The position numbers were made by a program, and so were the translations under genes. From the NCBI RefSeq assembly GCF_001647275.1, contig NZ_LRMM01000025.1, positions 1 to 64,000 on the forward strand: DNA of 64,000 bases. Reading direction: 5' to 3'. Origin of the DNA: Rufibacter ruber (GTDB lineage: Bacteria > Bacteroidota > Bacteroidia > Cytophagales > Hymenobacteraceae). Of the stretch, positions 8,962 through 64,000 are shown piece after piece; position 1 is the stretch's first letter; each line of letters begins with the position of its first letter. Below the pieces are notes generated by a model that searched no databases, was not told the DNA's origin, and saw only the letters and a program-made list of their open reading frames with translations.

Positions 8962-8975
8962 CAGAATAGGCAGAT

Positions 8976-9021: not shown

Positions 9022-9027
9022 CCAACG

Positions 9028-11262: not shown

Positions 11263-11297
11263 TCGTATCTATTGGTTTGACTAAAGTTACAAAACAT

Positions 11298-12584: not shown

Positions 12585-12590
12585 CTATTT

Positions 12591-12802: not shown

Positions 12803-12846
12803 CCTGTTTTCCGCCTGTTTTTGGGAAAACAGCCCTAAAACAGAAA
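12803..12846. repeat. dispersed palindrome, copy 8
   Basis: Arms CCTGTTTTCCGCCTG / AGCCCTAAAACAG, imperfect, immediately before the hairpin at 12845-12877. Confidence 0.6.
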
Positions 12847-12877
12847 ACCTCACCGTTCTGGTAGAACGGTGAGGTTT
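12845..12877 (-). terminator. terminator of the rfbC gene
   Basis: A perfect 15 bp stem AAACCTCACCGTTCT / AGAACGGTGAGGTTT with a three-base loop, directly downstream of the minus-strand rfbC gene. The rest of 12585-12899 holds palindrome copies 7 and 8 and no gene. Confidence 0.7.
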
Positions 12878-12899
12878 AAACTGCCATTGGCAGTGTCAC

Positions 12900-13442
12900 T
12901 TAAAACGGGGACTCAAATTGAGCCAAGGTAGGGAGCACTTCGTCCTTCTCAGATACCAGCGGGTTTTCAATTCCCCAGTCAATGCCTAGCGCCGGGTCAT
13001 TCCAGAGCAGACCGCCCTCAGATTCTTTGTTGTAGTAATTGCTGCACTTGTACTGGAAAACGGTGCCTTCCTCCAGCGCCACAAAACCGTGCGCAAACCC
13101 AATGGGCACAAAGAACATATTGTGCTTGTCGGCTTCCAGAAGGCAGGTGGCGTGCTGCCCGTAGGTGGGTGAGCCTTTTCTCAGGTCTACCGCCACGTCC
13201 AGCGCCTTCCCAACCACCACGCTTACCAGTTTGGCCTGGGCATAGGGTGGCTTCTGCAAGTGCAGCCCGCGCAACACGCCTTTCTTGGAAATGGAGCGGT
13301 TGTCCTGCACAAAAGTGTCTGTGATTCCCGCCTCTGCAAATTGTTTCGCACTGAAGGTTTCCAGAAAGGCGCCGCGGTCATCTGCAAACACCCGCGGGGT
13401 GATCTCTATAACGCCGGCTATGGGGTAGGTAGTCACTTGCAT
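12900..13442 (-). CDS. rfbC: dTDP-4-dehydrorhamnose 3,5-epimerase
   Basis: A 180-residue cupin-fold epimerase of dTDP-rhamnose synthesis. Signatures: the N-terminal GVIEITPRVFADDRGAFLE, QDNRSISKKGVLRGLHLQ, the catalytic His in GLHLQ, VVDLRKGSPTYG-like DVAVDLRKGSPTYG, and PIGFAHGF. Length is normal. The other rfb genes are absent from the window. A glycosyltransferase gene lies upstream on the same strand with a 66-base gap, so both may serve surface polysaccharide synthesis. Confidence 0.92.
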   Translation of the reverse strand: MQVTTYPIAGVIEITPRVFADDRGAFLETFSAKQFAEAGITDTFVQDNRSISKKGVLRGLHLQKPPYAQAKLVSVVVGKALDVAVDLRKGSPTYGQHATCLLEADKHNMFFVPIGFAHGFVALEEGTVFQYKCSNYYNKESEGGLLWNDPALGIDWGIENPLVSEKDEVLPTLAQFESPF

Positions 13443-13508
13443 GTTTCTCAGTTAATGTTTTGGTGGTAAGCGGCGGCCTATGGTCAACAGAGGCGCTACC
13501 GCCAGGAT

Positions 13509-14633: not shown

Positions 14634-14773
14634 GGGCGTAGTTTAAAAGACAAAGATAGTACAGCCAGTGGGTTAACCCGCACCTATACGCAGAAACTGT
14701 GCGGGCATCTGGGCTAGTTTCACCCTTTTGCGTACTTTGCAGCCGTACAAAGCCTGTAGTTTATAGTTGGCCT

Positions 14774-15484
14774 ATGACCGCTTACTTTCTTAACACCCAC
14801 GTACTGGTGGTGATTCTGTTTCTGGTTTTTTTTGTGCTGAAGGCCATCCTGCTCTTCCTGAACAAGCATGACCGGCTGAATAAAATCAGAGCTTCTACCC
14901 TGATGCTGGACCTGGTGTTTGGCGTCTTGATTCTGGTGACGGGGGCGTATTTAATTGGCTATAGGGCCTTTTACGGCAGTGGCACTCTGCCCACCTGGTT
15001 CCTGGCCAAGGTGGTGCTGGTGCTGGCGGCCATCCCGGTGGGGATAGTGGGGCTCAAGCGGCACAGCAAGGTGCTGACCGCACTGGGGCTCCTGCTCTTT
15101 CTGTATGTCTACGGCGTAGCCGAAACTAAAAGCCTGAAAATGCGTCCTGATACAGAAGAGGAGGCCACCGCTCTGCCAGATAGGCAAGCACAGACAGCCG
15201 CTACTGGCCAAGCGCAAGCCAACCACCCTATTCTGTCACAGATGCAGGGCACCCAACTGGAAAACACCAAAGCCATCTACACCCAGCTGTGCGCCACCTG
15301 CCACGGCGAAGACGGCCAAAAAGGAGCCAGCGGGGCCGTTGGCCTGCAGCAGAGCTCTCTGAGCCAGGCAGACAGGAAGGCGGTGATTGCCAACGGGCGG
15401 GGCCTGATGCCGGGCTTCAGCGCTACCTTGACAGAACAGGAAATAGAAGCACTGGCCTTGTACACCACCCTACTTAAAAAGTAA
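14774..15484 (+). CDS. SirB2-like membrane domain fused to cytochrome c
   Basis: A 236-residue protein in two parts. Residues 1-120 hold four hydrophobic helices arranged as in SirB family proteins (FLNTHVLVVILFLVFFVLKAILLFL at the start). After a polar linker the C-terminal 75 residues form a class I cytochrome c with heme motif CATCH and a distal Met in GLMPGFS. ATG 14774 is the best start because it begins directly at the first helix. The heme domain should face the periplasm. It lies 8 bases before hflX; the two may be co-transcribed. The electron partner is unknown. Confidence 0.82.
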   Translation: MTAYFLNTHVLVVILFLVFFVLKAILLFLNKHDRLNKIRASTLMLDLVFGVLILVTGAYLIGYRAFYGSGTLPTWFLAKVVLVLAAIPVGIVGLKRHSKVLTALGLLLFLYVYGVAETKSLKMRPDTEEEATALPDRQAQTAATGQAQANHPILSQMQGTQLENTKAIYTQLCATCHGEDGQKGASGAVGLQQSSLSQADRKAVIANGRGLMPGFSATLTEQEIEALALYTTLLKK

Positions 15485-15492
15485 TTTACCAC

Positions 15493-16695
15493 ATGAGAAA
15501 CCAACTCCACGTAACGGCTAAAGAACAGGAGACCGCTGTATTGGTGGCCGTGCCGCAATGGCGCCAGACCGATGAAAAGACAAAGGAGTACCTAGATGAG
15601 CTGGCTTTCCTGACCGAGACCGTGGGGGCCAAAACCCTGAAGCGGTTTATCCAGAAGCTAGACAAGCCTGACCTGCGCACCTACGTGGGCAAGGGCAAGC
15701 TGGAAGAGATTGTGGCGTATGTGAAGGAGCATAAAGTAGACATGGTCATTTTTGACGATGAGCTTTCGCCCTCACAGGTGCGCAACCTGGAGCGTGAGCT
15801 GCAGGTGAAAATCATAGACCGGAGCCTGCTCATTCTGGACATCTTCGCGCTGCGCGCCCAGACCGCCACCGCCCGGGCGCAGGTAGAAATGGCCCAGTAC
15901 CAGTACCTGCTGCCCCGCCTGACCAACCTCTGGACCCACTTGTCGCGCCAGCGCGGCGGGGGCGTGGCCATGCGCGGTCCCGGTGAAACCGAGATTGAGA
16001 CAGACAGACGTATTGTGCGCGAGAAGATCTCGTTGCTCAAAGAGAAACTGGAGAAGTTTGAGAAGCAGAACTTTGAGCAGCGCAAGTCCCGCAGCGGCAT
16101 TGTGCGCGTGTCACTGGTAGGGTACACCAACGTGGGCAAGTCAACGCTCATGAACCTCATCTCTAAATCAGATGTGTTTGCAGAGAACAAGCTGTTTGCC
16201 ACCGTTGACGCCACGGTGCGCAAGGTGGTGATTGACAACATCCCGTTCCTGCTCTCAGACACGGTTGGGTTCATCAGGAAACTACCTACCAAGCTTATTG
16301 AAAGCTTCAAGTCTACCTTAGACGAGATCAGGGAGTCTGACCTGCTGCTGCACGTGGTAGATGTCTCGCACCCGTCTTTTGAGGAGCACATTGGCGTGGT
16401 GAATGAAACCCTGAAAGATATCCAGTCTGCTGAAAAGCCCGTGATTCTGGTGTTCAACAAGACAGACCTGTACCTGCAGGAGCGGGAGCAGGAGCTGCAG
16501 GAGCACAGCCCCGAGGCCCGGCCAGACATCTCTGACCTGAAGTCTTCTTATATGGCCAAGGAACATACGCCGGCCGTGTTCATCTCAGCGGCCAACCGTA
16601 CCAACATTGATGAGTTGCGCGAGGTGCTGTTGCAGCATGTCTCCAGGATTCACCTTGAGCGCTACCCCAACAACCAGGCGCCACAGGAGTGGTAG
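15493..16695 (+). CDS. hflX: ribosome-associated GTPase HflX
   Basis: A 400-residue HflX. The N-terminal domain ends in the family glycine-rich stretch RQRGGGVAMRGPGETEIETDRR cut short here by listing only its ends (RQRGGG, GPGETEIE). The G domain shows G1 GYTNVGKSTL, G3 DTVGFIRKLP and G4 NKTD. HflX splits stalled ribosomes. Length and motifs are complete. Directly downstream of the cytochrome gene. Confidence 0.93.
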   Translation: MRNQLHVTAKEQETAVLVAVPQWRQTDEKTKEYLDELAFLTETVGAKTLKRFIQKLDKPDLRTYVGKGKLEEIVAYVKEHKVDMVIFDDELSPSQVRNLERELQVKIIDRSLLILDIFALRAQTATARAQVEMAQYQYLLPRLTNLWTHLSRQRGGGVAMRGPGETEIETDRRIVREKISLLKEKLEKFEKQNFEQRKSRSGIVRVSLVGYTNVGKSTLMNLISKSDVFAENKLFATVDATVRKVVIDNIPFLLSDTVGFIRKLPTKLIESFKSTLDEIRESDLLLHVVDVSHPSFEEHIGVVNETLKDIQSAEKPVILVFNKTDLYLQEREQELQEHSPEARPDISDLKSSYMAKEHTPAVFISAANRTNIDELREVLLQHVSRIHLERYPNNQAPQEW

Positions 16696-16711
16696 TCTGC
16701 TGAGAGTCTGA

Positions 16712-16777
16712 GGGGCTTTACTTTTCTGTTTTCGGGCTGTTTTTGCCAAAACAGCGAAAACAGAAAAGTAAAGCCCC
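16712..16777. repeat. dispersed palindrome, copy 9 (longest)
   Basis: The palindrome core is enclosed by extra arms GGGGCTTTACTTTTCTG / CAGAAAAGTAAAGCCCC that pair perfectly, giving a stem of over 25 bp. It is 17 bases after the hflX stop codon and could terminate it. Confidence 0.78.
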
Positions 16778-17031
16778 ACTCCCCGCACCACCTCGCGCTC
16801 CTTCCTTTGCGCAGGTTGCAGGTTCTTTAGCGCTGCCAGCCAGGGTGTCTACCGGGTCACCCGCGCCCGGCACCGGGGCAGCAATCTTTTTCCCACCCGC
16901 GGCGCATCACAGACAGAAGCAGATTCACCTTTTGCAGGCGGCCTGCCGGCCTTGATTCCCACCCCCACACCCCCTGTTTCCCCGCAAAACTATTTGCCCC
17001 CGAATCCAGTAAAGAGGGGGAAGCCGTGTTG

Positions 17032-17066
17032 CCGTTTTTAGCCTGTTTTTGAGAAAACAGCCCTAA
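17032..17066. repeat. dispersed palindrome, copy 10 (partial)
   Basis: CCGTTTTTAGCCTGTTTTT...AAAACAGCCCTAAGAG: the inner part pairs, but the 3' outer arm is lost. It directly adjoins the 160 bp element at 17067, so the outer arm may have been replaced when that element arrived. Confidence 0.55.
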
Positions 17067-17226
17067 GAGCATGTTTAAATTTGCCTTTTGCGCTGCAAAC
17101 GGGTATCAAAAGAACCTGACTTTGCTTTTTTCTCGCACCATAGCCTTGCTATGCTGCTCAAAAAACGCTTCGACAGAACCTTTCGCTCCCCGTTTTCGCT
17201 TGCAAAATCAAAATGTAAACAAGCCT
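17067..17226. repeat. 160 bp inverted-end element, copy B
   Basis: Colinear with 3257-3416 and the same length. The left end GAGCATGTTTAAATTTG... and the right end ...CAAAATGTAAACAAGC are inverted relatives of each other (about 33 bases with mismatches). It lies 42 bases before sixA, so it may carry that gene's promoter or leader. Region 16696-17268 otherwise contains no gene. Confidence 0.65.
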
Positions 17227-17268
17227 TAAAACGCAGTGGCCGCTTATACTTTTTGACGAAGTTTTTAC

Positions 17269-17766
17269 ATGAAGACGTTATATCTAGTACGGCACGCAAA
17301 ATCAAGCTGGGAATTTGAGGATCTGAGTGACCATGACCGCCCCCTGAACAAACGCGGCCGCTCAGACGCGCCCCTGATTGGGCAGGAGCTGGCTGACCGG
17401 AAGGTGGAGCTGGACCTGATCATTTCCAGTTCAGCGGTACGGGCACTTTCTACTGCTACGCTCCTGGCCAAAGAGCTGGAATTTGAGCCGGAGAAGATTG
17501 GGGTGCAGGAAGAACTCTACCGCATTGACGCAGAGTCTCTCCTGCTCTTCATTCAGTCCCTGCCAGATGAGTACAACCGGGTAATGCTGGTGGGCCACAA
17601 CCCCACGTTCACAGAAATCACCAATCAGCTTTCGCCAGAGAAAACCATTGCCAACCTGCCTACCGCCGGGGTGGCCGCGTTCAGCTTTGACGTGAACTAC
17701 TGGGGGCAGGCTGGCCCGGACAACGCAAAACTTCTTTTCCTGGACTTCCCTAAAAACTACAGATAG
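17269..17766 (+). CDS. sixA: phosphohistidine phosphatase SixA
   Basis: A 165-residue histidine phosphatase. The catalytic RHA motif is at the very start (LYLVRHAKSSWE), followed by LNKRGRSDA and the second His in LVGHNPTF. SixA removes phosphate from His of phospho-relay or PTS proteins. The ATG at 17269 is right before the motif, as in the family. It is 39 bases upstream of ppk1; this pairing recurs in Bacteroidota and points to a phosphate-linked role. Confidence 0.88.
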   Translation: MKTLYLVRHAKSSWEFEDLSDHDRPLNKRGRSDAPLIGQELADRKVELDLIISSSAVRALSTATLLAKELEFEPEKIGVQEELYRIDAESLLLFIQSLPDEYNRVMLVGHNPTFTEITNQLSPEKTIANLPTAGVAAFSFDVNYWGQAGPDNAKLLFLDFPKNYR

Positions 17767-17805
17767 AGTCCGCTTTAGGCGCCGCGCCCACCATACCAGA
17801 CACCA

Positions 17806-19944
17806 ATGGCAGAAACAGATAAACTACATTCCCTTGACACCTCCTCTTCGGCAGACCCGGACAAGCCAGAGACACCGCTCATCAGCCGGGAGCTGAGCTG
17901 GCTTTCATTTAACTACCGGGTGCTGCAAGAAGCCAAAGACCCGCGCGTTCCTTTGCTGGAGCGCCTCAAGTTCATGGCCATCTTCTCCTCTAACCTGGAT
18001 GAGTACTTTAAAGTGCGGGTGGCCACCATGCGCCGCCTGGTAAAGCTGAAAAAGAAGACCCGCGAGAAACTCAGGGAAGACCCGGCCCAGGAACTGGACA
18101 AGATTCTGGCCGAAGTAAGCCGGCAGCAGAAGGAGTTTGGGCAGGTGTTCAGAAATGAGCTGATCCCGGAGCTCAAGAAGGAGCACATTCACCTGATCAA
18201 TGAGCAGGAGTGCCATGACCGGCAACGGGAAACGGCGCTCTCCTATTTTCAGAGAACTGTCAAGCCCCTGCTGGTGCCAATTATTTTCAGCTCCAACCCC
18301 AGCCCCCTGTTCCTGAAAGACCAGACGGTCTACCTCATGATCAGGCTGGTGCCGCAGCAGGGGCAGCCAGAGCAGTACGCCATTCTGGAACTGCCCACCC
18401 AAAAGCACGGCGGGCGGTTTGTAGAACTCCCGGCAGAGCAGGGCGAACAGTATGTCATGATGCTGGATGACGTGATCAGGATTGGCTTGCCAGACCTGTT
18501 CCCCGGTTTTGCGCACGTAGAAGCCTTCGCCCTCAAACTTTCACGGGACGCCGAGCTGGACATTGAGGAGGAAGTCTCAGGCAACCTGATGGCCAAGATC
18601 AAAAAGAGCCTGAAGAAGCGGGAGAAAGGCCACCCCAGCCGGCTGCTCTATGACCCAGAAACGCCAGAAAGCATGTTGCAGGCCCTGCTGGAGCGCATTG
18701 GCCTGACCCAGGATGAACTGGTGACCGGCAGCCGCTACCATAACTTCAGGGACTTCTTCGGGTTTCCTGCGTTTGAGCGGGAAGACCTGTATTACCAACC
18801 GCAGCCCCCCCTGCCCCACCCGGGCCTGGAGAACGCCCCCAGCCTCTTAGACGCCCTGCAGACCCAGGAGTTTCTGGTGCATTACCCGTACCAGAAGTTT
18901 GACTACGCCCTGCGTTTTTTTGACGAAGCCGCCTCAGACCCCAAAGTCACCAGCATTAGCGCTACCCTGTACCGGGTGGCAGACAAGTCAAAGGTAGCCA
19001 AGGCCCTGATCAAGGCCGCCGAACACGGCAAACTGGTCACGGTGATTGTAGAGCTGAAAGCCCGCTTTGACGAGGAGTCAAACATCTTCTGGGGCAACAA
19101 ACTGGAGAAAGCGGGCGCCAATGTGATTTACGGCGTGCCTGACCTCAAAGTGCACAGCAAGATTGGCCTGGTGTCACGGCAGGAAGACGGCCATGCCAAA
19201 CTCTACGCCTACCTGAGCACCGGCAACTTTAATGAGAAAACCGCAAAACTCTACACAGACCACGCCCTCTTCACCTCAGATGAGCGCCTTACGCAGGAGG
19301 TGGCCCAGGTTTTCAACTTTCTGGTAGACGGCCTGCAAGACTACACCTATGAACACCTGCTGGTAGCCCCCCTTACGCTAAGAACACGGTTTGAGGAGCT
19401 TATTCAGCGGGAGATGCAGCTGGCGCAGGAAGGCAAACCTGCCTATATGCTCGTCAAGATCAACGCCCTGCAAGACACCCGCATGATTCAGCAGCTGTAT
19501 GCGGCCAGCCAGGCAGGCGTAAAAATTGAGTTGCTGGTGCGCGGCATCTGCAGCCTCTTACCGGGCATATCCGGCGTGAGCGACAACATCACGGTGCGCA
19601 GCATTGTAGACCGCTATCTGGAGCACGGCCGCATCTATGTGTTTGGCAACGGCGGCGAGGAGATAGTCTACATTGCCTCTGCTGACTGGATGAACCGCAA
19701 CCTGAGCCGCCGGGTAGAAGTGGGGTTCCCGCTTTACAACCCTGCCCTGCGGCAGGAGATCAGGCATCTGCTGGACCTTCAGCGGAAAGACAACCAGAAG
19801 GCCCGCAACGCAGACAACACTTACTGGATCTCTGAAGACCCCACCACCACCGTGCGGGCGCAGTACGCCATCTATGACTTTCTGCGGCAGCAAACCGCCG
19901 CCGCCGGCTTTGAGGTCCCCCCGGCGGCAGATACCCGCAAATAG
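17806..19944 (+). CDS. ppk1: polyphosphate kinase 1
   Basis: A 712-residue PPK1, which polymerises the gamma-phosphate of ATP into polyphosphate and can run backwards. Signatures: N-terminal ISRELSWLSFNYRVL, FSSNLDEYFKVRVA, FDYALRFFDEAASDP, the phosphorylated His in LKVHSKIGLV, TGNFNEKTAKLYTDH and the second active-site His region LEHGRIYVFGNGG, then SADWMNRNLSRRVEV. All four domains are present and the length is normal. Downstream of sixA in a likely operon; followed by palindrome copy 11 and a strong terminator. Confidence 0.95.
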   Translation: MAETDKLHSLDTSSSADPDKPETPLISRELSWLSFNYRVLQEAKDPRVPLLERLKFMAIFSSNLDEYFKVRVATMRRLVKLKKKTREKLREDPAQELDKILAEVSRQQKEFGQVFRNELIPELKKEHIHLINEQECHDRQRETALSYFQRTVKPLLVPIIFSSNPSPLFLKDQTVYLMIRLVPQQGQPEQYAILELPTQKHGGRFVELPAEQGEQYVMMLDDVIRIGLPDLFPGFAHVEAFALKLSRDAELDIEEEVSGNLMAKIKKSLKKREKGHPSRLLYDPETPESMLQALLERIGLTQDELVTGSRYHNFRDFFGFPAFEREDLYYQPQPPLPHPGLENAPSLLDALQTQEFLVHYPYQKFDYALRFFDEAASDPKVTSISATLYRVADKSKVAKALIKAAEHGKLVTVIVELKARFDEESNIFWGNKLEKAGANVIYGVPDLKVHSKIGLVSRQEDGHAKLYAYLSTGNFNEKTAKLYTDHALFTSDERLTQEVAQVFNFLVDGLQDYTYEHLLVAPLTLRTRFEELIQREMQLAQEGKPAYMLVKINALQDTRMIQQLYAASQAGVKIELLVRGICSLLPGISGVSDNITVRSIVDRYLEHGRIYVFGNGGEEIVYIASADWMNRNLSRRVEVGFPLYNPALRQEIRHLLDLQRKDNQKARNADNTYWISEDPTTTVRAQYAIYDFLRQQTAAAGFEVPPAADTRK

Positions 19945-19996
19945 TCCCTTTCCGCCCTGCGGATTTCTTTTTTCAACCAGAGCAGAGTGACCGGTG

Positions 19997-20048
19997 CGGT
20001 TTCTGTTTTAGGGCTGTTTTTCAAAAAACAGCTCTAAAACAGAAACCG
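19997..20048. repeat. dispersed palindrome, copy 11
   Basis: Arms CGGTTTCTGTTTTAGGGCTG / CAGCTCTAAAACAGAAACCG pair nearly perfectly (AGGGC against GCTCT keeps a G-T pair). Sits between ppk1 and its terminator. Confidence 0.75.
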
Positions 20049-20058
20049 TGCCCACCCA

Positions 20059-20110
20059 AAAGCAATAAAAAAAGCAGGCTCCTGAGCGCCTGCCGTTTTT
20101 TTATTGCTTT
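20059..20110. terminator. bidirectional terminator between convergent genes
   Basis: A long stem with inner arms GCAGGC / GCCTGC and outer A-rich and T-rich arms AAAAGCAATAAAAAAA / TTTTTTTATTGCTTT. It serves ppk1 on the plus strand and the outer-membrane gene on the minus strand. A degenerate palindrome relative follows to 20137. Confidence 0.8.
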
Positions 20111-20146
20111 GTTTTCAGGAAAACGGCTCCAAAACAGACCTACCAG

Positions 20147-21192
20147 CTATTGCTTCAAGAACCGGCGGGGTGGCACCAGGAAGAGCTCTACATTGAAGAA
20201 GATGGCATCTTTGATGTGGTTCTCAATTAGTGGGTTGGCCTTCTTGTTCTCGCCGTCATACACGCCAAACTTGTGGTTGTACCGGTAGCCCGTCTCTAAC
20301 CCGAACCACAGGAAATCATAAATCTCCCGGTCCCATCTAAAGCGGCCCCTGATCTCAGACTTTCGCAGCTCCACGGTTTCATACTGGCTGAACTGGTCAT
20401 TGTTGATGTTGATGTTGTAGCTGGCCCCTTCAATTTTGTAGCCCAGGTAGAAGAAAGACTTTTCAGAGAAGTTGCGCCTGAAGGTGACATTTGCCGGGAA
20501 GATGGCCTCAACCCCCCAGCGGTCATTGAACGTGCGGTTGTACATGAACGCCGGGTAAATGGTCTGCCGCCCAAACGCATACCCCAGTTGCGCGCCCACG
20601 CCATAAGACAGGTAGGGGCTCTTTTTCCAGCCATAAATCACCTCCATAGAGGTTCTCAGGTACCGGCTAAAGCTGATCTGGCTGTACTTCCCGTAATCAC
20701 CGTTCAGCTCACCTTTCACCCTGAACAGCAACCAATTCTTCTGGTTAATGGGCCGCAGTACAATGAGCTGCCCGTCTAACGAACGCAGATCTTTGTCTTC
20801 CAGGGTATTGTACAGGGGGTAGTCAATGTTGGCGGGTTCTTTGAAGTTGAACTCCTCCAGTTGATAGCCGCCGCCCACCACTACTTTCAGGTGCGGCCGG
20901 TTCCAGACGGGGGCATAGGCCTTGAATTCAAACTTATTACTTCTGAGCACCTTGGCTTCTGAGTTGCCAATATCGCCCTGCTTGCCTTCAGAGCGCAGGC
21001 CAAACCGGGGCAGGGTTTCATAGCGCACAATCACCCCCCGGCTCTTCGCCTGCCCCAGCACAGAGGGGTTGGCCAGCTCCTGCGGGTCATACTGCGCCCG
21101 GCCGCCCTCACTGAGTCAGTGAAAAAACCCTGCCCCTGCACCTCTAGCCCCCAACACCCCAGAACTGCCAATACTGTCAATAACTTTTTCAT
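20147..21192 (-). pseudogene. outer-membrane beta-barrel protein (DUF6268-like), frameshifted
   Basis: The open part (20147-21061) encodes about 300 residues of alternating aromatic strands ending in a C-terminal VPPRRFLKQ, typical of a Bacteroidota outer-membrane barrel. A good signal peptide (MKKLLTVLAVLGCWG, start at 21192) lies just upstream in another frame. The frame needed to join them (reading GGRAQYDPQELANPSVLGQ before the barrel) is interrupted near 21110 in the stretch CACTGACTCAGTGAGGG, where the barrel frame meets TGA. So it is either a decaying gene or carries a sequence error. It follows the phosphoesterase-barrel locus on the same strand by about 36 bases. DUF6268 is my best family guess. 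Confidence 0.65.
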
Positions 21193-28810: not shown

Positions 28811-28846
28811 GCCCTGTAGTTCAACGGATAGAATAGAAGTTTCCTA
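28811..28846 (+). tRNA. 5' half of tRNA-Arg(CCT), interrupted
   Basis: GCCCTGTAGTTCAACGGATA starts a typical Bacteroidota tRNA-Arg: acceptor strand GCCCTGT, D arm GTTC...GAAT, then AGAAGTTTCCTA with anticodon CCT. The sequence then changes to GGCGGGCGAATG and no matching anticodon-stem, T-arm or GCAGGGC-like acceptor strand follows. The gene is therefore cut in the anticodon loop, at the point where the phage-like region begins. The 3' half should be at the other end of the element, outside this window. Confidence 0.75.
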
Positions 28847-30608: not shown

Positions 30609-31148
30609 ATGTCAGAAAAGAAAAAGACTAAGGGAGTTGCTATCATGAACAGCTCCCTTCAAGTCGCTAAAACAAGAAAAGAGGAGCGCTTTGACTTCTG
30701 CTACGAGAGATGGATTCAGGGTGTCAAATACATGGAAATCGTTCGGGAGTTCGCCACCAAGTTTGAGGACACCGAGCGCACTGCAAAGAATTACCTCAAG
30801 AAGGTTAAAGAGTACCTAGCCAAAGCACCGGACCGGGCAGAGCAGGAGTCCAGGCTTAATTTGGCAAGAGCCCAATACAGGGATCTATACTCCAAGCTGT
30901 ACCAACAAGGCAAGTACAAAGAAGCCGCTGACGTACGCACCAAACTCGATAAAATAGAAGGGCTGGACATTATTAGAATTGACCAGAACGTCAACACCAA
31001 CCAGCCAACCTTAGACCTGTCTGTACTTCCGCTGGAATTACTTCTACAGCTTCAAAATCTTATGCCTGGGCAAATTATAGATGTGGACTATGAAGAAGCC
31101 GATTACGAAGAGGCAGACCAAAATACGGACGAAAATGTAATTGAATAA
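30609..31148 (+). CDS. terminase small subunit (probable)
   Basis: A 179-residue protein directly before TerL and overlapping it. The N-terminal half has a helix-turn-helix-like run (RWIQGVKYMEIVREFATKF...AKNYLKKV), a central helical stretch suits oligomerisation, and the C-terminus is very acidic. This layout and position match small terminase subunits, which recognise the packaging site. Assigned mainly from context. Confidence 0.65.
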   Translation: MSEKKKTKGVAIMNSSLQVAKTRKEERFDFCYERWIQGVKYMEIVREFATKFEDTERTAKNYLKKVKEYLAKAPDRAEQESRLNLARAQYRDLYSKLYQQGKYKEAADVRTKLDKIEGLDIIRIDQNVNTNQPTLDLSVLPLELLLQLQNLMPGQIIDVDYEEADYEEADQNTDENVIE

Positions 31149-32604
31149 AAATAAACGAACCGCTAACCAACTACAAGGAATAACACCCACACTGCTTGAA
31201 GCTGCCATCTGCCAATCAAGCTTTTACGAGTTTTTCAAACGGGCTTTCAAAGTCCTGGAACCGCACACAAAATACGTTGACTCCCCAATAATCAAGTATG
31301 TGTGCGACCGTCTACAAGCCGAGGTAGAGCGCATCGCAATCGGCGAGAAGAAGACTAGGGACATCATCATCAACATACCGCCAAGGACTTCAAAAAGCCT
31401 TATCTGTTCGGTGTGTTTTCCTGCCTGGGTCTGGGCCAAATACCCATATATGCGGTTCATTACCGCTTCTTACGCAGCCACACTGTCAACCAAGCTTGCA
31501 CTTGACGGCCGCACATTGATCCTGTCTGAGTGGTACCGCAAGCTGTTCCCTCATGTCAGGTTGGCCGAAGATGCAAACAACAAGACATCTTACGAGACCA
31601 CTGCCAGAGGCGCCAGGGTTTCTACCTCCGTTGGCGGTACCATTACCGGTATGGGCGCAGACATCATTGTGATTGACGACCCTCAGAAGCCAGATGAAGC
31701 TGAGTCAGACGCCAAGGTGGAAGACGTACATTTCTGGTGGGACAACACCATAGAAAACCGCCTTAACAACGCAGAGGTAGGGCTAAGAATAATTGTGATG
31801 CAGCGCCTGTCAGAAGAGGATTTGACTGGTTACCTGCTAGACCAATACCCAGAGCAGTTTGACCACATCTGCATTCCTGCCGAACTGAACGAAGACGTAA
31901 AACCGGCAGAACTCAAACAGCACTACAGAAACGGTCTCTTTGACCCAGTAAGGTTAGGCCATTCCAGGCTGGAGGTTCTAAAGAAGAAGCCTTACAAGTA
32001 TGCTGGCCAGTATATGCAGGCACCCGCCCCAAGCGGTGGCGGTATGTTCAAGAAATCCAGTTTCAAGGTGATTTCATACGAGGAGTTCCAGCAAATGACG
32101 GCAACTCAAAAAGTTACTTGGCATTTCTTTCTGGACACAGCCTTCACAAGCAACAAGAAAAACGACCCGTCTGCCATCGTAGTTGCTGCCAGAGTAGGCA
32201 ATATAGTCTTCATCAGAGAGGTGCGCACCAAGCACTTTGAATTTCCTGAGCTGCTGAAATACATCAAAGAATATGTTCCAAAGTTTGCTACACCAGGCAG
32301 CCGAGTACACATAGAAGGCAAGGCTTCAGGCCAGTCTCTGATTCAGCAGCTGAGAGAGAGCACAATGTTCAACCTGAAAGAACTGCAACCGGGCAAAGAG
32401 TCCAAAGAAGACCGGGCCTACGGTGTGACTGACATAGTAGAGTCAATGCGGGTGGTACTTATTGAGGGCGCTTATGTTCAGCCGTTCCTCGACCAGGTGA
32501 GCATCTTCCCTAATGGTAAAAACGACGATATGGTGGACGCAATGGTGTACGCCATACAGGAGCTGGTAACCAAGAGCAAGTCTTTCTACTACGGATTCTC
32601 TTAA
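31141..32604 (+). CDS. terminase large subunit
   Basis: A 487-residue packaging motor. The ATPase has Walker A NIPPRTSKSL (about residues 78-87), Walker B ADIIVIDDP (about 172-180) and a coupling motif IVMQRLSEEDL. The nuclease has its acidic residues in FLDTAFTSN (about 330), IEGKASGQ and NDDMVDAMVYAI near the end. The start is TTG at 31141, overlapping the upstream gene by 8 bases; no ATG start would include the N-terminal region. Cuts and pumps DNA into proheads. Confidence 0.93.
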   Translation: MNKNKRTANQLQGITPTLLEAAICQSSFYEFFKRAFKVLEPHTKYVDSPIIKYVCDRLQAEVERIAIGEKKTRDIIINIPPRTSKSLICSVCFPAWVWAKYPYMRFITASYAATLSTKLALDGRTLILSEWYRKLFPHVRLAEDANNKTSYETTARGARVSTSVGGTITGMGADIIVIDDPQKPDEAESDAKVEDVHFWWDNTIENRLNNAEVGLRIIVMQRLSEEDLTGYLLDQYPEQFDHICIPAELNEDVKPAELKQHYRNGLFDPVRLGHSRLEVLKKKPYKYAGQYMQAPAPSGGGMFKKSSFKVISYEEFQQMTATQKVTWHFFLDTAFTSNKKNDPSAIVVAARVGNIVFIREVRTKHFEFPELLKYIKEYVPKFATPGSRVHIEGKASGQSLIQQLRESTMFNLKELQPGKESKEDRAYGVTDIVESMRVVLIEGAYVQPFLDQVSIFPNGKNDDMVDAMVYAIQELVTKSKSFYYGFS

Positions 32605-34033: not shown

Positions 34034-34047
34034 GACATATATAAGGG
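34034..34047 (+). promoter_or_regulatory. GACATATATAAGGG motif before 34050 gene
   Basis: Exact type form. The ATG begins at 34050, two bases after the GGG. It follows a terminator and repeat copy 1, as expected of a promoter for the tail genes. Confidence 0.6.
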
Positions 34048-39267: not shown

Positions 39268-39281
39268 GACATATATAAGGG
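39268..39281 (+). promoter_or_regulatory. GACATATATAAGGG motif before tape measure gene
   Basis: Exact type form, 17 bases after the previous stop codon. Its GGG is also the first three bases of the hairpin at 39279-39310. Confidence 0.6.
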
Positions 39282-42745: not shown

Positions 42746-42759
42746 GACATATATAAGGG
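42746..42759 (+). promoter_or_regulatory. GACATATATAAGGG motif before scaffold gene
   Basis: Exact type form, 30 bases after the protease stop and 20 bases before ATG 42780. Confidence 0.6.
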
Positions 42760-44785: not shown

Positions 44786-44799
44786 GACATATATAAGGG
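44786..44799 (+). promoter_or_regulatory. GACATATATAAGGG motif before 44803 gene
   Basis: Exact type form, 24 bases after a terminator; the ATG follows the GGG after three bases. The order terminator-motif-ATG is the best support for a promoter. Confidence 0.65.
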
Positions 44800-52597: not shown

Positions 52598-52831
52598 ATG
52601 ACACAGAACAAAGAACCCAGGCAGAAGATGGTGGCTGTAAAGCCAGAGGTACACCAAGAACTTAGAATGCTACAACTTGAGCTCAGCTACGGATTGGAGC
52701 TTCCGTTCTCGCTCAACGACATAGTGAAGATGCTTCTGATTTCGGGTGTGGACCTGAACAAGGTAAGCGGCTACTATGCCAAAGAGAAGGCTGCGCAAGC
52801 AACAAAAATCGATGAAGAGGAAGCCAAGTAA
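52598..52831 (+). CDS. 77-residue protein before polymerase gene
   Basis: A small helical protein (KPEVHQELRMLQLELSYGLE then LPFSLNDIVKMLLISGV) with some similarity in layout to ribbon-helix-helix or replication-initiation accessory proteins. Its stop codon overlaps the next ATG (TAATG). It follows a TGATATATACTATAAA motif at 52567-52582. Confidence 0.55.
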   Translation: MTQNKEPRQKMVAVKPEVHQELRMLQLELSYGLELPFSLNDIVKMLLISGVDLNKVSGYYAKEKAAQATKIDEEEAK

Positions 52832-54528
52832 TGCCAAGAGCTGGATATGTACCTAGAGCAAAGAGAGTAGCCGAACTGGAGAAAGCGGGAAAGCTCCCGG
52901 TGTGCAAGCTGCCAAAGGCACTCACCCCAGAGGTGATTGCCGCGGCCTTGCCTAAAACGCTGAAGCTGGAGACGGCAATGCACCTGGTGAGCTTCATCGC
53001 CAAGGAGCACCGAGTACGCAGAAGCAGGCTCTACAACAACGACCGGGACGCAGCCAACTTCGAGCAGCTTGGCTTTGTCTCCATCCACTCTGACAAGATT
53101 AAGTCCCAGGTGGTGTCAAGGTACCCGGCCTACATAGCGGCTCTAAAAGAAGCTGGCATCATTGAGGTGTTCGACTTCAAGGAGACCGAGGTGGGCAGGA
53201 GCGTTGAGGCGCACAAGAAGATTAAGGAGGCAGAGTTCCTGGAACACCTGGCTTCTCTGACCGAAGACGAGCGCAGGCAGTTTGACGCGCCAGCCAAGAA
53301 GGCAAGAGGAACGGCAGGCAGCGGCTCGTACCAGCCTGACAAGTTCAGCAAGCCATACAAAATATGCGACAGATGGAACGCGATGAACTATGAAGAATAC
53401 CAGCAGTACAGAACAGTCTTCTACACCAACGAAGAGACAATCCTGAAGGTCCTGGAACCGAAGACCGAGAAGGAGATAAAGCTAATCAAGAAGTCCCGCG
53501 AGAAGCTGGTGGACATGGCCGAGGCGATTGTCCAGGCCTGCGACACAGACCGCACCCACCGGATAGTGGAAGGCTGGCTCAACACTCACCTCGGCCTGAT
53601 GAAGACCAACAAGAAGCTGGACTACTTCACCCTGCAAGGCCAGGCGCCACAGGTAGCTGTGATGTACCTGGAGGACTTGAAAGAAGAGTTCTGGTTCAAC
53701 GACTACGAGGCCAAGGGCGGCAGGAAGTACACCCCGCTTTCCAACATGGACAGGAACCTGAGGCCCTTCTTCAGAATCAACGGCGCATTGCCTTGGACTA
53801 TTGACATCAAGAACAGCCAGTTCTTTATGCTGAGCCAGGTAGCCAGACACCCAGCGCAGGCAAAGAAGATGCTGCTTGATACGCCAGAGGAGTTCTATGA
53901 AGACTTCTGCAACGCCATTGACCAGCTGGCTGCGCTTTACGCAACCGACCGGGACACAAAGAACTTCCTGGACGCGGCAGCCGAGGGCAGGGTCTACGAG
54001 TACGTAGCCGCTTCTCTGGGGATAACAAGGGACAAGGCAAAGAAGCTGTTGCTGGGCGTCGTCTTCAGCGGCCAGCTGAACTACCTGAAGACGAAAGAGA
54101 AGCTGTCTGCGGTGGCCGGTGAACTGATTACGCTGGTAGGAAAGCTGAACGACCCAGACAACGCGATGGCCCCGGCCTTTGACGAAGACCAGTTCAGAAT
54201 CAAGGGCAGCAAGCTTCAGCTCAACCGCCTGAAGAAAGGAAAGCCCAACACCCTGGCCAAGCTGCTACAGCACTTCGAGTCGGTGATGTTCATTGACAAG
54301 GCGGCAGTGATAGCGGTAATCAAGTCCGTCAACAAGTACGACTTCGAGACCATACATGACAGCTTCCACTGCCACCCGGACGATGTGGAGGCCCTGCAGG
54401 TGATGCTGGAACAGGTGTTCGTACTGGGCGGTTTTGACAAGCCTACTGTAGAGTCGCACCAGCTCAGCGAGGAGTACCCGGCAAAGGCCTTCGCTGAGAA
54501 ATTCAAGAAGAAAAAACAGAGAAACTAA
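52831..54528 (+). CDS. divergent single-subunit (T7-like/family A) polymerase
   Basis: A 565-residue protein with the three palm/finger motifs of the family A/T7 RNA polymerase fold in the right order. Motif A: PWTIDIKNSQFFMLSQVA (Asp about 325). Motif B: ITRDKAKKLLLGVVFSG (Arg about 400, Lys about 404-405, FSG in place of YG), alike to the TR-x-x-x-K...YG pattern of T7 RNA polymerase. Motif C: FETIHDSFHCHPDD (His509-Asp510), very close to IHDSF of T7 RNA polymerase. Between B and C, LAKLLQHFESVMF resembles the Q-x-x-E/D stretch of those enzymes. It is far shorter than T7 RNA polymerase (883). Related hypothetical proteins with IDIKNSQ and TIHDS motifs exist in phages and plasmids as I remember. 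Whether it makes RNA or DNA is open. Confidence 0.65.
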   Translation: MPRAGYVPRAKRVAELEKAGKLPVCKLPKALTPEVIAAALPKTLKLETAMHLVSFIAKEHRVRRSRLYNNDRDAANFEQLGFVSIHSDKIKSQVVSRYPAYIAALKEAGIIEVFDFKETEVGRSVEAHKKIKEAEFLEHLASLTEDERRQFDAPAKKARGTAGSGSYQPDKFSKPYKICDRWNAMNYEEYQQYRTVFYTNEETILKVLEPKTEKEIKLIKKSREKLVDMAEAIVQACDTDRTHRIVEGWLNTHLGLMKTNKKLDYFTLQGQAPQVAVMYLEDLKEEFWFNDYEAKGGRKYTPLSNMDRNLRPFFRINGALPWTIDIKNSQFFMLSQVARHPAQAKKMLLDTPEEFYEDFCNAIDQLAALYATDRDTKNFLDAAAEGRVYEYVAASLGITRDKAKKLLLGVVFSGQLNYLKTKEKLSAVAGELITLVGKLNDPDNAMAPAFDEDQFRIKGSKLQLNRLKKGKPNTLAKLLQHFESVMFIDKAAVIAVIKSVNKYDFETIHDSFHCHPDDVEALQVMLEQVFVLGGFDKPTVESHQLSEEYPAKAFAEKFKKKKQRN

Positions 54529-54529: not shown

Positions 54530-55237
54530 ATGGAATCAAATGCCATAGAGACCCAAGAAACGACGGAATGCCCCGACCACCACAAGGACTTCTGCTGGTG
54601 CTTCAAGAACGCAACCGCAAACTGGCGCAAAGAGAGACGCGACCGGTCTGTTGCCGCAATCACAAAGATGCTGGACACCCACAAGGTGAACTACGAGGAG
54701 TCCAATGTGCCAAACGTTGTGCTGGTCAAAGCAGACGGCCTGCCCGACATTTTCCTGTCGCTTGTGAAGGAGGACAGCTCGGCGCCATACAAGATAAGAG
54801 AAGTCGGCACCAACGACTGGACCACCATCAAGAGGCCCGACTTCATCCACCTGTACGGCGGTAGGAAAAAGAAAGCCAAGGCCCCGGAGAAAGTGCGGAT
54901 AGGCTTCGGCAAGTACGCCGGCAAAAATGTGGGCGAGGTCCTGGAAGAGAACCCGCTGTACCTGCTGTGGGCACTTAGAAGCGGCTACTGCACATTGCCA
55001 CTAACCGAAGCCATTAACGCGGCCCTGAGCAAGCCCGAGAACGCTGCCAAGGTAGAAGCTGCCGCGGCAGAGGAAGATGCGGCAGAGGTGCACTTAATGC
55101 CATTTGGCAAGTACCGGGGGCAGCCGCTCAAGGATGTGTTCGTCAAAGACCCAGGCTACTTTGAGTGGCTAATGACAAAAGAGATAACGCGACCGCTGCG
55201 CAGGAGCATCGAGAATTACTTACCCGCCAGCGAATAA
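54530..55237 (+). CDS. protein with two exonuclease X C-terminal-like modules
   Basis: A 235-residue protein. After a Cys/His-containing N-terminus (CPDHHKDFCWCFKNA, a possible zinc site), two copies of the same module follow: RIGFGKYAGKNVGEVLEENP...LWAL (about 122-148) and LMPFGKYRGQPLKDVFVKDP...EWLM (about 188-215). FGKY-x-G-x-x-x-x-x-V...DP-x-Y-x-x-W is the ExoX C-terminal/DUF3820 signature. No exonuclease domain is present. It directly follows the polymerase-like gene, so a replication role is likely. Confidence 0.7.
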   Translation: MESNAIETQETTECPDHHKDFCWCFKNATANWRKERRDRSVAAITKMLDTHKVNYEESNVPNVVLVKADGLPDIFLSLVKEDSSAPYKIREVGTNDWTTIKRPDFIHLYGGRKKKAKAPEKVRIGFGKYAGKNVGEVLEENPLYLLWALRSGYCTLPLTEAINAALSKPENAAKVEAAAAEEDAAEVHLMPFGKYRGQPLKDVFVKDPGYFEWLMTKEITRPLRRSIENYLPASE

Positions 55238-57148: not shown

Positions 57149-57160
57149 GGCATATATAGG
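57149..57160 (+). promoter_or_regulatory. CATATATAGG motif before sigma gene
   Basis: GGCATATATAGG, a variant with one A less, 22 bases after a terminator and two bases before ATG 57163. Confidence 0.55.
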
Positions 57161-57162
57161 TG

Positions 57163-57717
57163 ATGAGAGACATAGTAGACATCATCACCGACTGCCTGAC
57201 CCCGAAGATGCGGAAGGTAGTGATAGGCGCATTCCACAAGCGCTTCGGCCACAGCCCTGGCGACATAGACGAGTACATCCAGATGGCAGCCATCAAGGTG
57301 TACGAGCGGTTCAGGGACGAGCCAGACACCGAACGGCTGGACAGCCACCTGAACACCTACTTCTGCACCGCCGCCATAAACCTCTACATAGACAAGGGGC
57401 GGTACGAGCTGAAGCGGCCAACAGTGAGGTACGACGCCCTGGAAGACGCGCAGACGTTCCTGGAACCCCTGTCGGTACAGGAAAGCCCATACGAGGAGGA
57501 AGACCAGACAGACTACAACCTAGCCCTGCGGGTGCTCAAGGAGCTGCCAGACGAGTGCAGAATCCCGCTGGAGATGTACGCCGCCGGTGACTCGTACCAA
57601 GAGATTGCAGAGCAGCTGGGCTGGAACCTGAACACCGTAAAAGTGCGGATAAAACGCGGAAGGGATTTGTGTAAAATAAACCGCGAAAAGTTGCGAAAAC
57701 GCGAAAAGCGGGAATAA
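57163..57717 (+). CDS. ECF-like sigma factor
   Basis: A 184-residue protein. Residues 25-85 look like sigma region 2 (IDEYIQMAAIKVYERFRD, then LNTYFCTAAINLYIDKGR) and residues 125-175 like region 4 with a helix-turn-helix (LKELPDECRIPLEMYAAGDS, then YQEIAEQLGWNLNTVKVRIK). Both regions are present and the order is right, so it could direct core RNA polymerase to phage promoters. ATG 57163 lies directly behind the motif; GTG 57160 is also open. Confidence 0.75.
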   Translation: MRDIVDIITDCLTPKMRKVVIGAFHKRFGHSPGDIDEYIQMAAIKVYERFRDEPDTERLDSHLNTYFCTAAINLYIDKGRYELKRPTVRYDALEDAQTFLEPLSVQESPYEEEDQTDYNLALRVLKELPDECRIPLEMYAAGDSYQEIAEQLGWNLNTVKVRIKRGRDLCKINREKLRKREKRE

Positions 57718-59565: not shown

Positions 59566-59883
59566 TGCCTTTTTCGCAGCGCTTGGTGAAGAGGATTCCT
59601 TAACTGATGTAGATGCTAATAAAGCTATCCAGACAAGCCTGGTGCCTACCATTTGGGCCCGAAATAAGCTTTTTGCATTGCCTTGTGGCGAAAGTAAAGT
59701 TTCCTTTACATTCATTCCGCCTAATATACTCAGCCAAACGTCCCTCCTTGCCTTCCCAATCCCCGACAGCGTCGTTTCGTCATAGTGTCGTTGCGTCATA
59801 CGTCGCTGTGTCACATACACTTACATCCTAAATGTCTTGAACGAGCGACCCTGCCTTTTAGGATTCCGCCCCTCCCCTGTGCA

Positions 59884-59926
59884 GCGTTGGTAAGTTGTTA
59901 GTAACTATTTGCTAAAAGGCTACATC
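59884..59926 (+). repeat. 45 bp leader repeat, copy 1
   Basis: CGTTGGTAAGTTGTTAGTAA and the following CTATTTGCTAAAAGGCTA correspond to 61201-61243. It lies about 90 bases upstream of the gene at 60015; the other copy is about 60 bases upstream of the gene at 61300. Confidence 0.6.
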
Positions 59927-60014
59927 GGTGTCTCGACTTCTACTATCTTCGGTATGTTCAACAGCCACTAAGAATAGTGCAACTAATGGACGGAAACCTT
60001 AACCATATAAGATA

Positions 60015-61190: not shown

Positions 61191-61200
61191 GTGCTAACAA

Positions 61201-61243
61201 CGTTAGCAAGTTGTTGGTAACTTTTTAGTAAAAGGCTAGAACG
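61201..61243 (+). repeat. 45 bp leader repeat, copy 2
   Basis: CGTTAGCAAGTTGTTGGTAA followed by CTTTTTAGTAAAAGGCTAGA; colinear with 59884-59926 and of equal length. Just upstream of the CTATACTCG motif at 61260. Confidence 0.6.
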
Positions 61244-61259
61244 GTATCGCGGAATTCTC

Positions 61260-61559: not shown

Positions 61560-62048
61560 ATGAAGAAGCGAGTATTCAAACTATCGGAGGTAGACATCAC
61601 AGCGGTTGGTGAGGTAGAGCTGACCTACAGGAGACACCACACTGAAGAAGCACCCATCCTACGCAACGTCAAGGTGACCTGTTCAGACGACATCAACAAG
61701 TTCCTGCGTAAGCGGATGGAGAAGCACATTGAACACACTGAGGGATTCTACGCCCTCTACCTCAACAGGAACAACTACGTCTTAGGCGTCTACTGTGTGA
61801 GCATGGGCGGTGTGGCAGGAACTGTTGCTGACCCAAAGATAATCCTGCAGGCAGGGCTATTGTTAAATGCCTCTGCGGTTGTAATTTCACACAACCACCC
61901 CAGCGGTAACCTAAAGCCGTCAGGCGCAGACGCCGCCCTGACTAGGAAGCTACAGGAGGCCTGCAAGTTGGTTGACATAGCTTTGCTAGACCACATCATC
62001 ATTACGCCCGAGAGCTACTATTCATTTGCTGACGATTGCGAGTTATGA
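61560..62048 (+). CDS. RadC-like JAB/MPN protein
   Basis: A 162-residue RadC-family protein. The JAB metalloprotease-like site is complete: ISHNHPSGNLKPSGAD with the metal-binding H-x-H, Ser and Asp, plus the preceding Glu in NVKVTCSDD-type positions less clear. RadC proteins are frequent on phages, plasmids and genomic islands next to recombination genes; their activity is uncertain. The stop overlaps the ATG of the recombinase gene (ATGA). Confidence 0.85.
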   Translation: MKKRVFKLSEVDITAVGEVELTYRRHHTEEAPILRNVKVTCSDDINKFLRKRMEKHIEHTEGFYALYLNRNNYVLGVYCVSMGGVAGTVADPKIILQAGLLLNASAVVISHNHPSGNLKPSGADAALTRKLQEACKLVDIALLDHIIITPESYYSFADDCEL

Positions 62049-62785
62049 AGTACATAGAATACTACCGAGTAAGTACAGAGAAACAGGGACGCAGCGGTTT
62101 GGGTTTGGAGGCCCAGGCCGCTGCGGTCACCGCTTACATCAAGTCGGTGGGCGGCGAGTCCATCAACAGGTTTGTGGAGGTGGAGTCGGGAGGCAGCAAG
62201 GACAAGATAAGCGCCCACCAAGATGTTACCATTGAGAAGCTGCTGAAGCGCAGGCCAATCCTGTTGCAAGCCATCAACGAGGCGCAGGCCACAGGCGCCA
62301 CCATCATTGTGAAAGAGGCAAGCAGGCTCAGCAGGTTCAGCCTGCTGATAAACTACCTGATCGCCTGCAACATCAGATTCCTCTCAGCTGACTCACCGCA
62401 GGACGACGAGATGTTCATCCGCTTGCGTACCGCGTTCAACGAGGAGGAGCTTAAGAAGGTCTCTGAGCGGACCAAGAAGGCGTTGGCCGCTAGGAAGGCG
62501 AGGGGGTACAGCCTCGGCAAGCCCGAGAACTTCAGCTCAGAGGGCAGGGCCAAAGGCGCGGCCAAGACCTCAGAGAACGCCGCCAAGTCAGAGACCAACA
62601 GGAAGGTGCTGAACCTGGTGCGGCTCTACAAGGAGAAGGGCTGGACGCTCCAGCAGATTTGCGACGAGCTAAACTCGCTGGGCTACAAGACGCCTAGGGG
62701 CAAGACGTTCCAGACAGGCAGCATTGCGATGCTGCTGAAGGGCGACGAGAAAAGGAACGATGAGCGACATTACCCTATAGTATAA
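62045..62785 (+). CDS. serine recombinase (resolvase/invertase family)
   Basis: A 246-residue recombinase. The catalytic Ser is in YYRVSTEKQ (about residue 10), followed by GLGLEAQ; arginines of the active site lie in EASRLSRFS; the dimer helix region KKVSERTKKALAARKARG follows, then a C-terminal helix-turn-helix (TLQQICDELNSLGYKTPRGK). It is shorter than large phage serine integrases, so it is closer to invertases/resolvases. The last ten codons and the stop lie within repeat copy 4. ATG 62045 overlaps the RadC stop; TTG 62036 is also open. Confidence 0.88.
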   Translation: MKYIEYYRVSTEKQGRSGLGLEAQAAAVTAYIKSVGGESINRFVEVESGGSKDKISAHQDVTIEKLLKRRPILLQAINEAQATGATIIVKEASRLSRFSLLINYLIACNIRFLSADSPQDDEMFIRLRTAFNEEELKKVSERTKKALAARKARGYSLGKPENFSSEGRAKGAAKTSENAAKSETNRKVLNLVRLYKEKGWTLQQICDELNSLGYKTPRGKTFQTGSIAMLLKGDEKRNDERHYPIV

Positions 62786-63197: not shown

Positions 63198-63226
63198 GGC
63201 CAGCCCACCAGCTGGCCCTTCTTTTT
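63198..63226 (+). terminator. factor-independent terminator
   Basis: Stem GAAGGCCAGC / GCTGGCCCTTC with loop CCACCA (one bulge) followed by TTTTT. Confidence 0.8.
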
Positions 63227-63254
63227 GGCGCCCACCAAGGGATTCCCGGATTGG

Positions 63255-63263
63255 CTACACTCG
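63255..63263 (+). promoter_or_regulatory. CTACACTCG motif
   Basis: CTACACTCG 25 bases before ATG 63288. Same class as 56535, 60765 and 61260; its place supports that ATG as the gene start. Confidence 0.5.
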
Positions 63264-63287
63264 CGGTTTAACCACCCCGCAGACAGT

Positions 63288-64000
63288 ATGCTCAGAAGGT
63301 ACATAAACAGCATCTTGCAGCGTTTAGGGCTCCACCACCGAGACGAAATCCCGAAACCTGACAAACTACTTACGGGAGGCCCGGACTCGGTACGGGAGCC
63401 CGAAACGCGAAATGTCGCTTTAAACTTTCCTGCCCCGGCGCCATATAATGGTATGGCAGAAGAGTGGAGAGAAATAATAATAGAGGGCCAGGCAATACCG
63501 GGCTACAGAATTTCGAGCAGAGGGGAAGTTCTCAGCACTAAGTACAAGGAGCCGAGAATACTGAGGCCTGGGCTGAACCAGAAGGGCTACGCGCAGGTGT
63601 CCCTCAGGAACGGGGACAGGTACCAGAAGTGCCTTGTGCACCGGCTGGTGGCAGAGGCGTTCATACCCAACCCGAACGGCCTGCCGATAGTGGACCACAT
63701 CGACACAGACCCGCTGAACAACTGCGTAGAGAACCTCAGGTGGGTGAACGCCAGGACGAACATGCAGAACCGCAGGAAGCGGCTGGAAGGGAACACTACG
63801 TCTGTGTTTGTTGGCGTACACCAGGTCGCTACCACAGGGCGGTGGGTGGCCAAGATATGCTACGAGTACAAGAACTTCAACCTCGGCACATTCGAGACCG
63901 AGGTCGAAGCCGCAAAGAAGTACGACCGGGCGCTCATAGAGATGGGCTTTGAGCCCGCGAACTTCCCAATGGAAACCTACCTACCAAAGCGTCGTTCACA
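63288..64000 (+). CDS. HNH homing-type endonuclease, cut by window edge
   Basis: An open frame running off the right edge. From 63453 it has the order NUMOD4 (EEWREIIIEGQAIPGYRISS), HNH (VHRLVAEAFIPNPNG then IVDHIDTDPLNNCVENLRWV) and AP2-like (VGVHQVATTGRWVAKICYEY). This is the layout of free-standing phage homing endonucleases. Residues 1-55 (start 63288) are a less typical extension; the motif at 63255 favours that start, while ATG 63453 is the start of the known domains. The C-terminus is not seen. Confidence 0.8.
   Translation, partial: MLRRYINSILQRLGLHHRDEIPKPDKLLTGGPDSVREPETRNVALNFPAPAPYNGMAEEWREIIIEGQAIPGYRISSRGEVLSTKYKEPRILRPGLNQKGYAQVSLRNGDRYQKCLVHRLVAEAFIPNPNGLPIVDHIDTDPLNNCVENLRWVNARTNMQNRRKRLEGNTTSVFVGVHQVATTGRWVAKICYEYKNFNLGTFETEVEAAKKYDRALIEMGFEPANFPMETYLPKRRS

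Follow-up and report, generated by a model that had tools for sequence, protein, structure and literature searches.

A divergent exonuclease-less A-superfamily polymerase of a Rufibacter ruber prophage, likely of the TV-Pol family and a candidate replication-initiating primase-polymerase

The TV-Pols were predicted in 2008 by Iyer, Abhiman and Aravind to be primase-polymerases, a third kind of primase independent of DnaG and AEP (PMC2579912). They are proteins of 400-600 aa that combine an A-superfamily core without exonuclease, a hairpin Arg, two Asp and RxxxK fingers with an extra N-terminal domain, and they occur in viruses, Sputnik included, and in bacterial integrase/resolvase elements, among them those of Bacteroidota (PMC2579912). 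The CCPol of SCCmec was grouped with the TV-Pols (PMC2579912); a close relation to Pol I is described for it. For CCPol, primase activity has been demonstrated, the primers being made with the partner protein MP, and a priming role was proposed for the A-family core of the SCCmec CCPol-MP and PolA-SSB primases on their integrative elements (PMC7581432, PMC10061031). The biochemical work that we found in the literature concerns SCC-element CCPols only. Similar by description are divPolA1 and divPolA2, divergent exonuclease-less PolA-like phage proteins, of which divPolA2 has an unknown N-terminal domain (PMC11348598).

The window analysed here is a stretch of 64,000 nucleotides from Rufibacter ruber, and its polymerase gene lies in a genuine prophage, as the first-pass annotation had proposed; capsid genes are present in this prophage. 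The prophage spans 36.6 kb between two 15-bp repeats and carries genes for a terminase, portal, tape measure, sigma factor, RadC, serine recombinase, RusA, HNH endonuclease and tyrosine integrase (Table 1). The polymerase gene shares the A of its ATG with the stop codon of a preceding 77-aa gene (overlap TAATG), for whose product Pfam and PHROGs scans gave no family match, and the next gene starts two bases past the polymerase gene end. This downstream gene does encode the ExoX-C-like modules that had been noticed in it, two in number. Family scans found no replication polymerase or primase in the prophage other than the TV-Pol-like gene. Neither a Walker-A scan nor family scans revealed a helicase-type P-loop protein in the prophage, and no D5/COG3378 helicase stands beside the polymerase. 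An MP-like OB-fold partner was not recognised by family scans, although OB folds can escape sequence detection.

Table 1. Features of the prophage and of the polymerase gene (window positions unless marked as contig positions)
Feature	Position	Strand	Evidence or remark
attL, 15-bp direct repeat AATAGAAGTTTCCTA	28832..28846	.	other copy in tRNA-Arg, contig 65398-65412, beyond the window
Terminase large subunit	31141..32604	+	phrog_38 E 9.5e-85
Promoter-like motif GACATATATAAGGG, copy 1	34034..34047	+	
Promoter-like motif GACATATATAAGGG, copy 2	39268..39281	+	perfect hairpin starts exactly at GGG
Promoter-like motif GACATATATAAGGG, copy 3	42746..42759	+	
Promoter-like motif GACATATATAAGGG, copy 4	44786..44799	+	
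Small 77-aa gene before polymerase	52598..52831	+	ORF; ribbon-helix-helix-like by eye
Polymerase gene, TV-Pol-like, family-A palm/fingers/thumb	52831..54528	+	ATG ORF, 565 aa
N-terminal winged-helix-like domain, ~residues 46-200	52966..53430	+	family-wide motif pattern; pLDDT 85; weak fold matches, Z 5-7.7
R298, template/primer hairpin Arg	53722..53724	+	39/40 kept; aligns with DNAP GR in hhalign
Motif A, D325-I-K-N-S-Q330	53803..53820	+	D and Q 40/40
Motif B, R400xxxK404xxxL408xxxF412-S413, fingers O-helix	54028..54069	+	register with T7 DNAP R518/K522/Y526/Y530
Motif C, H509-D510-S511 (ETIHDSF)	54355..54363	+	H and D 39/40
Co-directional gene downstream, two ExoX-like C-terminal modules	54530..55237	+	PF20600 E 3.9e-17
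ECF-like sigma factor	57160..57717	+	phrog_1740 E 5e-17; Sigma70_r4_2 E 1.1e-11
RadC-like JAB protein, common to closest relative's element	61560..62048	+	PF04002 E 3.3e-37
Serine recombinase (resolvase/invertase), common to relatives' elements	62036..62785	+	phrog_125 E 1.3e-20; FD36 copy E 1.8e-123
HNH/AP2 endonuclease	63225..64000	+	runs to contig 64013
Tyrosine integrase after HNH/AP2 gene	contig 63937-65217	-	

The first-pass annotation had described a compact single-subunit polymerase with motifs A, B and C in order, and conservation agrees with that description. In an alignment of 40 sequences, which share 14-36% identity with the window protein, D325, N328, S329 and Q330 are invariant; 39 rows keep R298, K404, Q480, E483, H509 and D510, position 400 is R or K in 37 and F412 is Phe in 33. 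Because they are conserved across such diverse sequences, the motifs are under selection and do not reflect chance. By alignment, R298 is the counterpart of the Arg in the 'TGR' of Pol I. The sequence around D325 is TIDIKNSQ, and motif spacing and the hhalign register place Q330 at the steric-gate position; the R400xxxK404 segment of motif B reads RDKAKKLLLGVVFSG. The protein had also seemed unusually short, and with 565 aa it is indeed well below the 883 of T7 RNA polymerase, but among its own kin this is unexceptional, the relatives in huge phages having ~390-420 aa.

Database scans with the sequence gave little: NCBIfam and PADLOC yielded no meaningful match, the Pfam match was sub-threshold, the PHROGs match was weak and similar to that of Pfam, and PDB searches returned chance matches only, whether the query was the single protein or a profile. 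A structure prediction had been suggested as a check, and it points clearly to a polymerase. The AlphaFold model (pLDDT 83; motif regions mostly >90) was matched by Foldseek to the PDB with E-values from 1.2e-4 and a probability of 1.00, and family-A DNA polymerases filled the 50 matches listed. The 50 matches listed by VIA were likewise all family-A DNA polymerases and covered the whole core; residues 211-547 gave Z-scores of 15.5 with T7 DNA polymerase (rmsd 4.8 for 285 residues) and 15.1 with Klenow. Helical models often give middling Z-scores. We consider a polymerase fold with a conserved active site almost certain. The alignment to a PolA alignment by hhalign was modest (E 5e-4, probability 31%) and put R400/K404/F412 in register with R518/K522/Y530 of T7 DNA polymerase. 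The window protein thus shares with Pol I and T7 gp5 the thumb-palm-fingers fold (Z ~15), the motif A, B and C residues and the R400/K404 register. It differs from them in having neither a 5' nuclease nor a 3'-5' exonuclease, in the change of the gate Glu to Gln and of the O-helix Tyr to Phe, and in an identity of only 10-16% in structural alignments.

Residues 1-210 fold separately from the core (model pLDDT 85), and no match to an exonuclease domain was obtained in this region; the core carries no nuclease fusion. The best matches of this domain, though weak, were the DNA-binding/initiator N-domain of 4pql/4pt7 (Z 7.7 and 7.4), the ORC2 winged helix and MarR-like winged helices. A winged-helix-like sequence pattern is kept even in the short phage forms. 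From these matches, whose Z-scores are all below 8, and the conserved pattern we infer that the N-terminal domain is a DNA-binding winged helix.

Of 204 host-family genomes, 20 (~10%) have homologues, as do 16 of the 395 genomes sampled from the phylum and many IMG/VR contigs, very large phages among them. Their settings are prophages, tRNA-integrated elements without detected capsid genes and phages whose records reach 735 kb. The host genome itself has three polymerase copies, in the window prophage, in a second prophage (contig C107) and on contig C77. A plasmid search with a relative as query gave a match on one Hymenobacter plasmid only, and a search of phage records gave matches only in uncultured huge phages. 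In the tree, the window protein pairs with that of Pontibacter sp. FD36 (support 99/97) inside a 17-row clade of mostly host-family genomes and a few viral contigs, which is separate from a large-phage clade. Within the large-phage clade (L104, L107, L131, L132 and L134), the gene immediately before that of the ~400-aa polymerase is a conserved one of ~440 aa without a known family, and a gene of ~178 aa usually follows. Ten neighbouring genes, most of them next to relatives in large viral contigs, were scanned with Pfam, and no helicase was found.

The Pontibacter polymerase is the closest relative (36-37% identity) and lies in an element of 17.35 kb (L067 with L153, oriented 3823-21175) that is bounded by a 38-bp repeat and sits at the same tRNA, a tRNA-Arg, as the window prophage. 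The two share the integrase (E 6.6e-188), the serine recombinase, HNH and RadC. No capsid genes were detected in the 17.35-kb element, and the ExoX-C and RusA neighbours are not kept beside its polymerase. A polymerase copy of Rufibacter immobilis has an integrase on one side and a serine recombinase on the other, and the linkage of integrase and serine recombinase is seen at the window prophage, at L067 and at L068. Since the FD36 element shares this module and has no detected capsid genes, it is the integration/recombination module, not the capsid operon, that the polymerase travels with. The 17.35-kb element is possibly a phage satellite or a defence island. A GmrSD-type gene is also present in it.

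Among characterised polymerases, the TV-Pols and the SCCmec CCPol come closest to the window protein. We propose that it is a divergent A-superfamily polymerase without exonuclease, of the TV-Pol kind, and that it acts as the replication-initiating primase-polymerase in a temperate phage and in related integrative elements; we give this reading a probability of about 60%. It draws on the DNA polymerase fold, the conserved catalytic residues, the integrase/resolvase context, the lack of another detected replication polymerase or primase in the prophage, the primase activity demonstrated for CCPol, and a match of the model in a BFVD search to the DNA replication protein of Zamilon virophage (E 1.3e-3). 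Zamilon is a relative of Sputnik, one of the viruses whose TV-Pols define the family, and the integrase/resolvase context is that described for TV-Pols (PMC2579912). Membership in the TV-Pol family as such is likely. Mechanistically, the N-terminal winged-helix domain would bind the origin or a single-stranded DNA template, and the thumb/palm/fingers core would make or extend the first primer by two-metal chemistry at D325/D510, where R400/K404 would hold the incoming nucleotide. The helicase and DNA polymerase III of the host could then take over. The function as a whole, from the DNA template and priming to origin binding and hand-over to the host, is deduced from these features. We make no prediction of sugar preference, the gate being Gln and the Y766/Y639 position Phe, and, with the gate Glu replaced, synthesis of DNA rather than RNA is not certain.

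Several features speak against the TV-Pol reading or set the protein apart from the known systems. Unlike CCPol and many TV-Pols, the window polymerase has no D5/COG3378 helicase beside it, and no OB-fold MP partner was recognised. The gate Glu is replaced by Gln, whereas CCPol keeps both the gate Glu (E174) and the Phe (F225) of Pol I where the window protein has Q330 and L408. The winged-helix matches are weak, the N-domain nevertheless looks winged-helix-like in a way that sets it apart from the described TV-Pols, the link in sequence to any named TV-Pol is weak, and the window protein does not share the close relation of CCPol to Pol I. The link to MAP_030 of Microcystis phage Ma-LMM01, which from its transposase neighbours would be the TV-Pol of that phage, is a shared LLQRxE...IHxSI signature (E 0.006-0.1) and is only suggestive. 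The relatives of MAP_030 are near-identical, so that no better TV-Pol profile could be obtained from them. MAP_030 itself (L170:22749-24266, - strand) seems to have HNS at the position of the catalytic HDS and may be inactive. As a further candidate, divPolA2 (AUR84708) was compared and rejected: it lacks the HDS and LLQxxE motifs and showed no detectable homology (hhalign probability 0.7%, E 0.08).

The clade is present in about a tenth of host-family genomes and in some of the largest phages, and its activity bears on whether priming by A-family polymerases is general. The Gln at the steric gate makes the choice of sugar directly testable.

The protein had been named a T7-like/family A polymerase at first, with a phage RNA polymerase using its own promoters as a possible function. 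Of the name, the A-superfamily part stands, and the T7-like RNA polymerase part is not supported. T7 RNA polymerase belongs to the same superfamily, and motif C is a literal match, as the T7 enzyme reads ALIHDSFG, but the likeness is confined to ~32 residues around IHDSF: Pfam RNA_pol (PF00940) reaches 18.7 bits against a cut-off of 22 (E 8.5e-4) over residues 501-532 only, and hhalign aligned T7 RNA polymerase at motif C only (E 0.054). No RNA polymerase was among the 50 matches listed by Foldseek or the 50 listed by VIA, an absence that does not amount to exclusion, and we do not favour a T7-like RNA polymerase for want of support beyond motif C. The alternative that had been kept in reserve, a DNA polymerase or primase, is the better reading, as the fold is that of family-A DNA polymerases and the fingers are in their register. 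A minimal T7/N4-like enzyme transcribing late genes from private promoters is accordingly improbable. The absence of the steric-gate Glu would suit it, but by fold the protein falls among DNA polymerases, no N-terminal domain of a transcription type was seen, and the O-helix Tyr position is Phe in most of the alignment. In T7 RNA polymerase this Tyr, Tyr639, governs ribose choice.

The best remaining argument for an RNA polymerase is that each of two TV-Pol prophages in the genome has its own private motif. The repeated GGG-starting motifs noticed before the phage genes are real: the 5.5-Mb genome contains GACATATATAAGGG in four exact copies, which all lie in this prophage, on the + strand and before late genes, and the bipartite motif is absent from other IMG/VR contigs. 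Three of the four copies have AAATA 13 nt upstream. The C107 prophage has AAACAC-N13-CATTTAAATATRTAT, in five exact copies that are the only ones in the genome, plus variants. Both motifs are thus mostly two-box with a 13-nt spacer, unlike the contiguous block of T7-type promoters. A two-box layout is that of sigma-factor usage. The sigma factors of the two prophages are related (E 1e-4), and a late-sigma match was also obtained in a third TV-Pol provirus; an IMG/VR search for sigma homologues returned the same prophage only. Because both TV-Pol prophages combine two-box motifs with a sigma factor, the private motifs can be explained without the polymerase, and host RNA polymerase directed by sigma factor is the simplest account; the ECF-like factor of the window prophage probably uses its promoter-like motifs. 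The closest relative's element, in which no capsid operon was found, also speaks against private phage promoters read by this polymerase, a proposal that we consider improbable. It seems similarly doubtful, to the point of being improbable, that this is a minimal RNA polymerase of ~390-565 aa in which a winged-helix N-terminus replaces the promoter-binding domain of T7, or that a dual enzyme making RNA and DNA serves both priming and private-motif transcription.

A repair, gap-filling or translesion A-family polymerase that aids recombination-dependent replication is unlikely too, yet deserves more weight. RusA, RadC and the ExoX-C protein are recombination neighbours in the prophage, VIA also found structural likeness of the model to Pol theta, Pol nu and PolI, and a repair role was suggested for divPolA2 (PMC11348598). 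The absence of the ExoX-C and RusA neighbours beside the closest relative counts against such a role, and the integrase/resolvase linkage suggests a part in replication of the element. The least probable alternative is a vestigial or regulatory protein of polymerase fold, for example a DNA-binding initiator without catalysis; the winged-helix N-terminus and the HNS of MAP_030 would fit it, but both catalytic Asp, the Arg and the Lys are kept across 40 very diverse sequences.

Some further observations concern the repeats of the two prophages. Weaker copies of GACATATATAAGGG occur at 30318, 32621 and 57149, the last abutting the sigma gene. In the C107 prophage, which has its own sigma-like gene at 3104-3847, the motif AAACAC-N13-CATTTAAATATRTAT precedes many genes (L150/L151), for example at 5525, 8087, 11960, 18266 and 18836 (+). 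The window prophage also has two 54-nt direct repeats, 80% identical, at 59882-59935 and 61198-61251. An element of 20-34 bp, AAGGAACGATGAGCGACATTACCCTATAGTATAAGT, is present in four copies in this prophage only, at 33948 (+), 62756 (+), 52379 (-) and 52463 (-), the 34-bp form reading ...ACTATAGGGTAATGTCGCTCATCGTTCC. It could be an operator, an origin or a recombination site; one copy is found at the 3' end of the serine recombinase gene, and two precede the polymerase operon by 120-220 bp.
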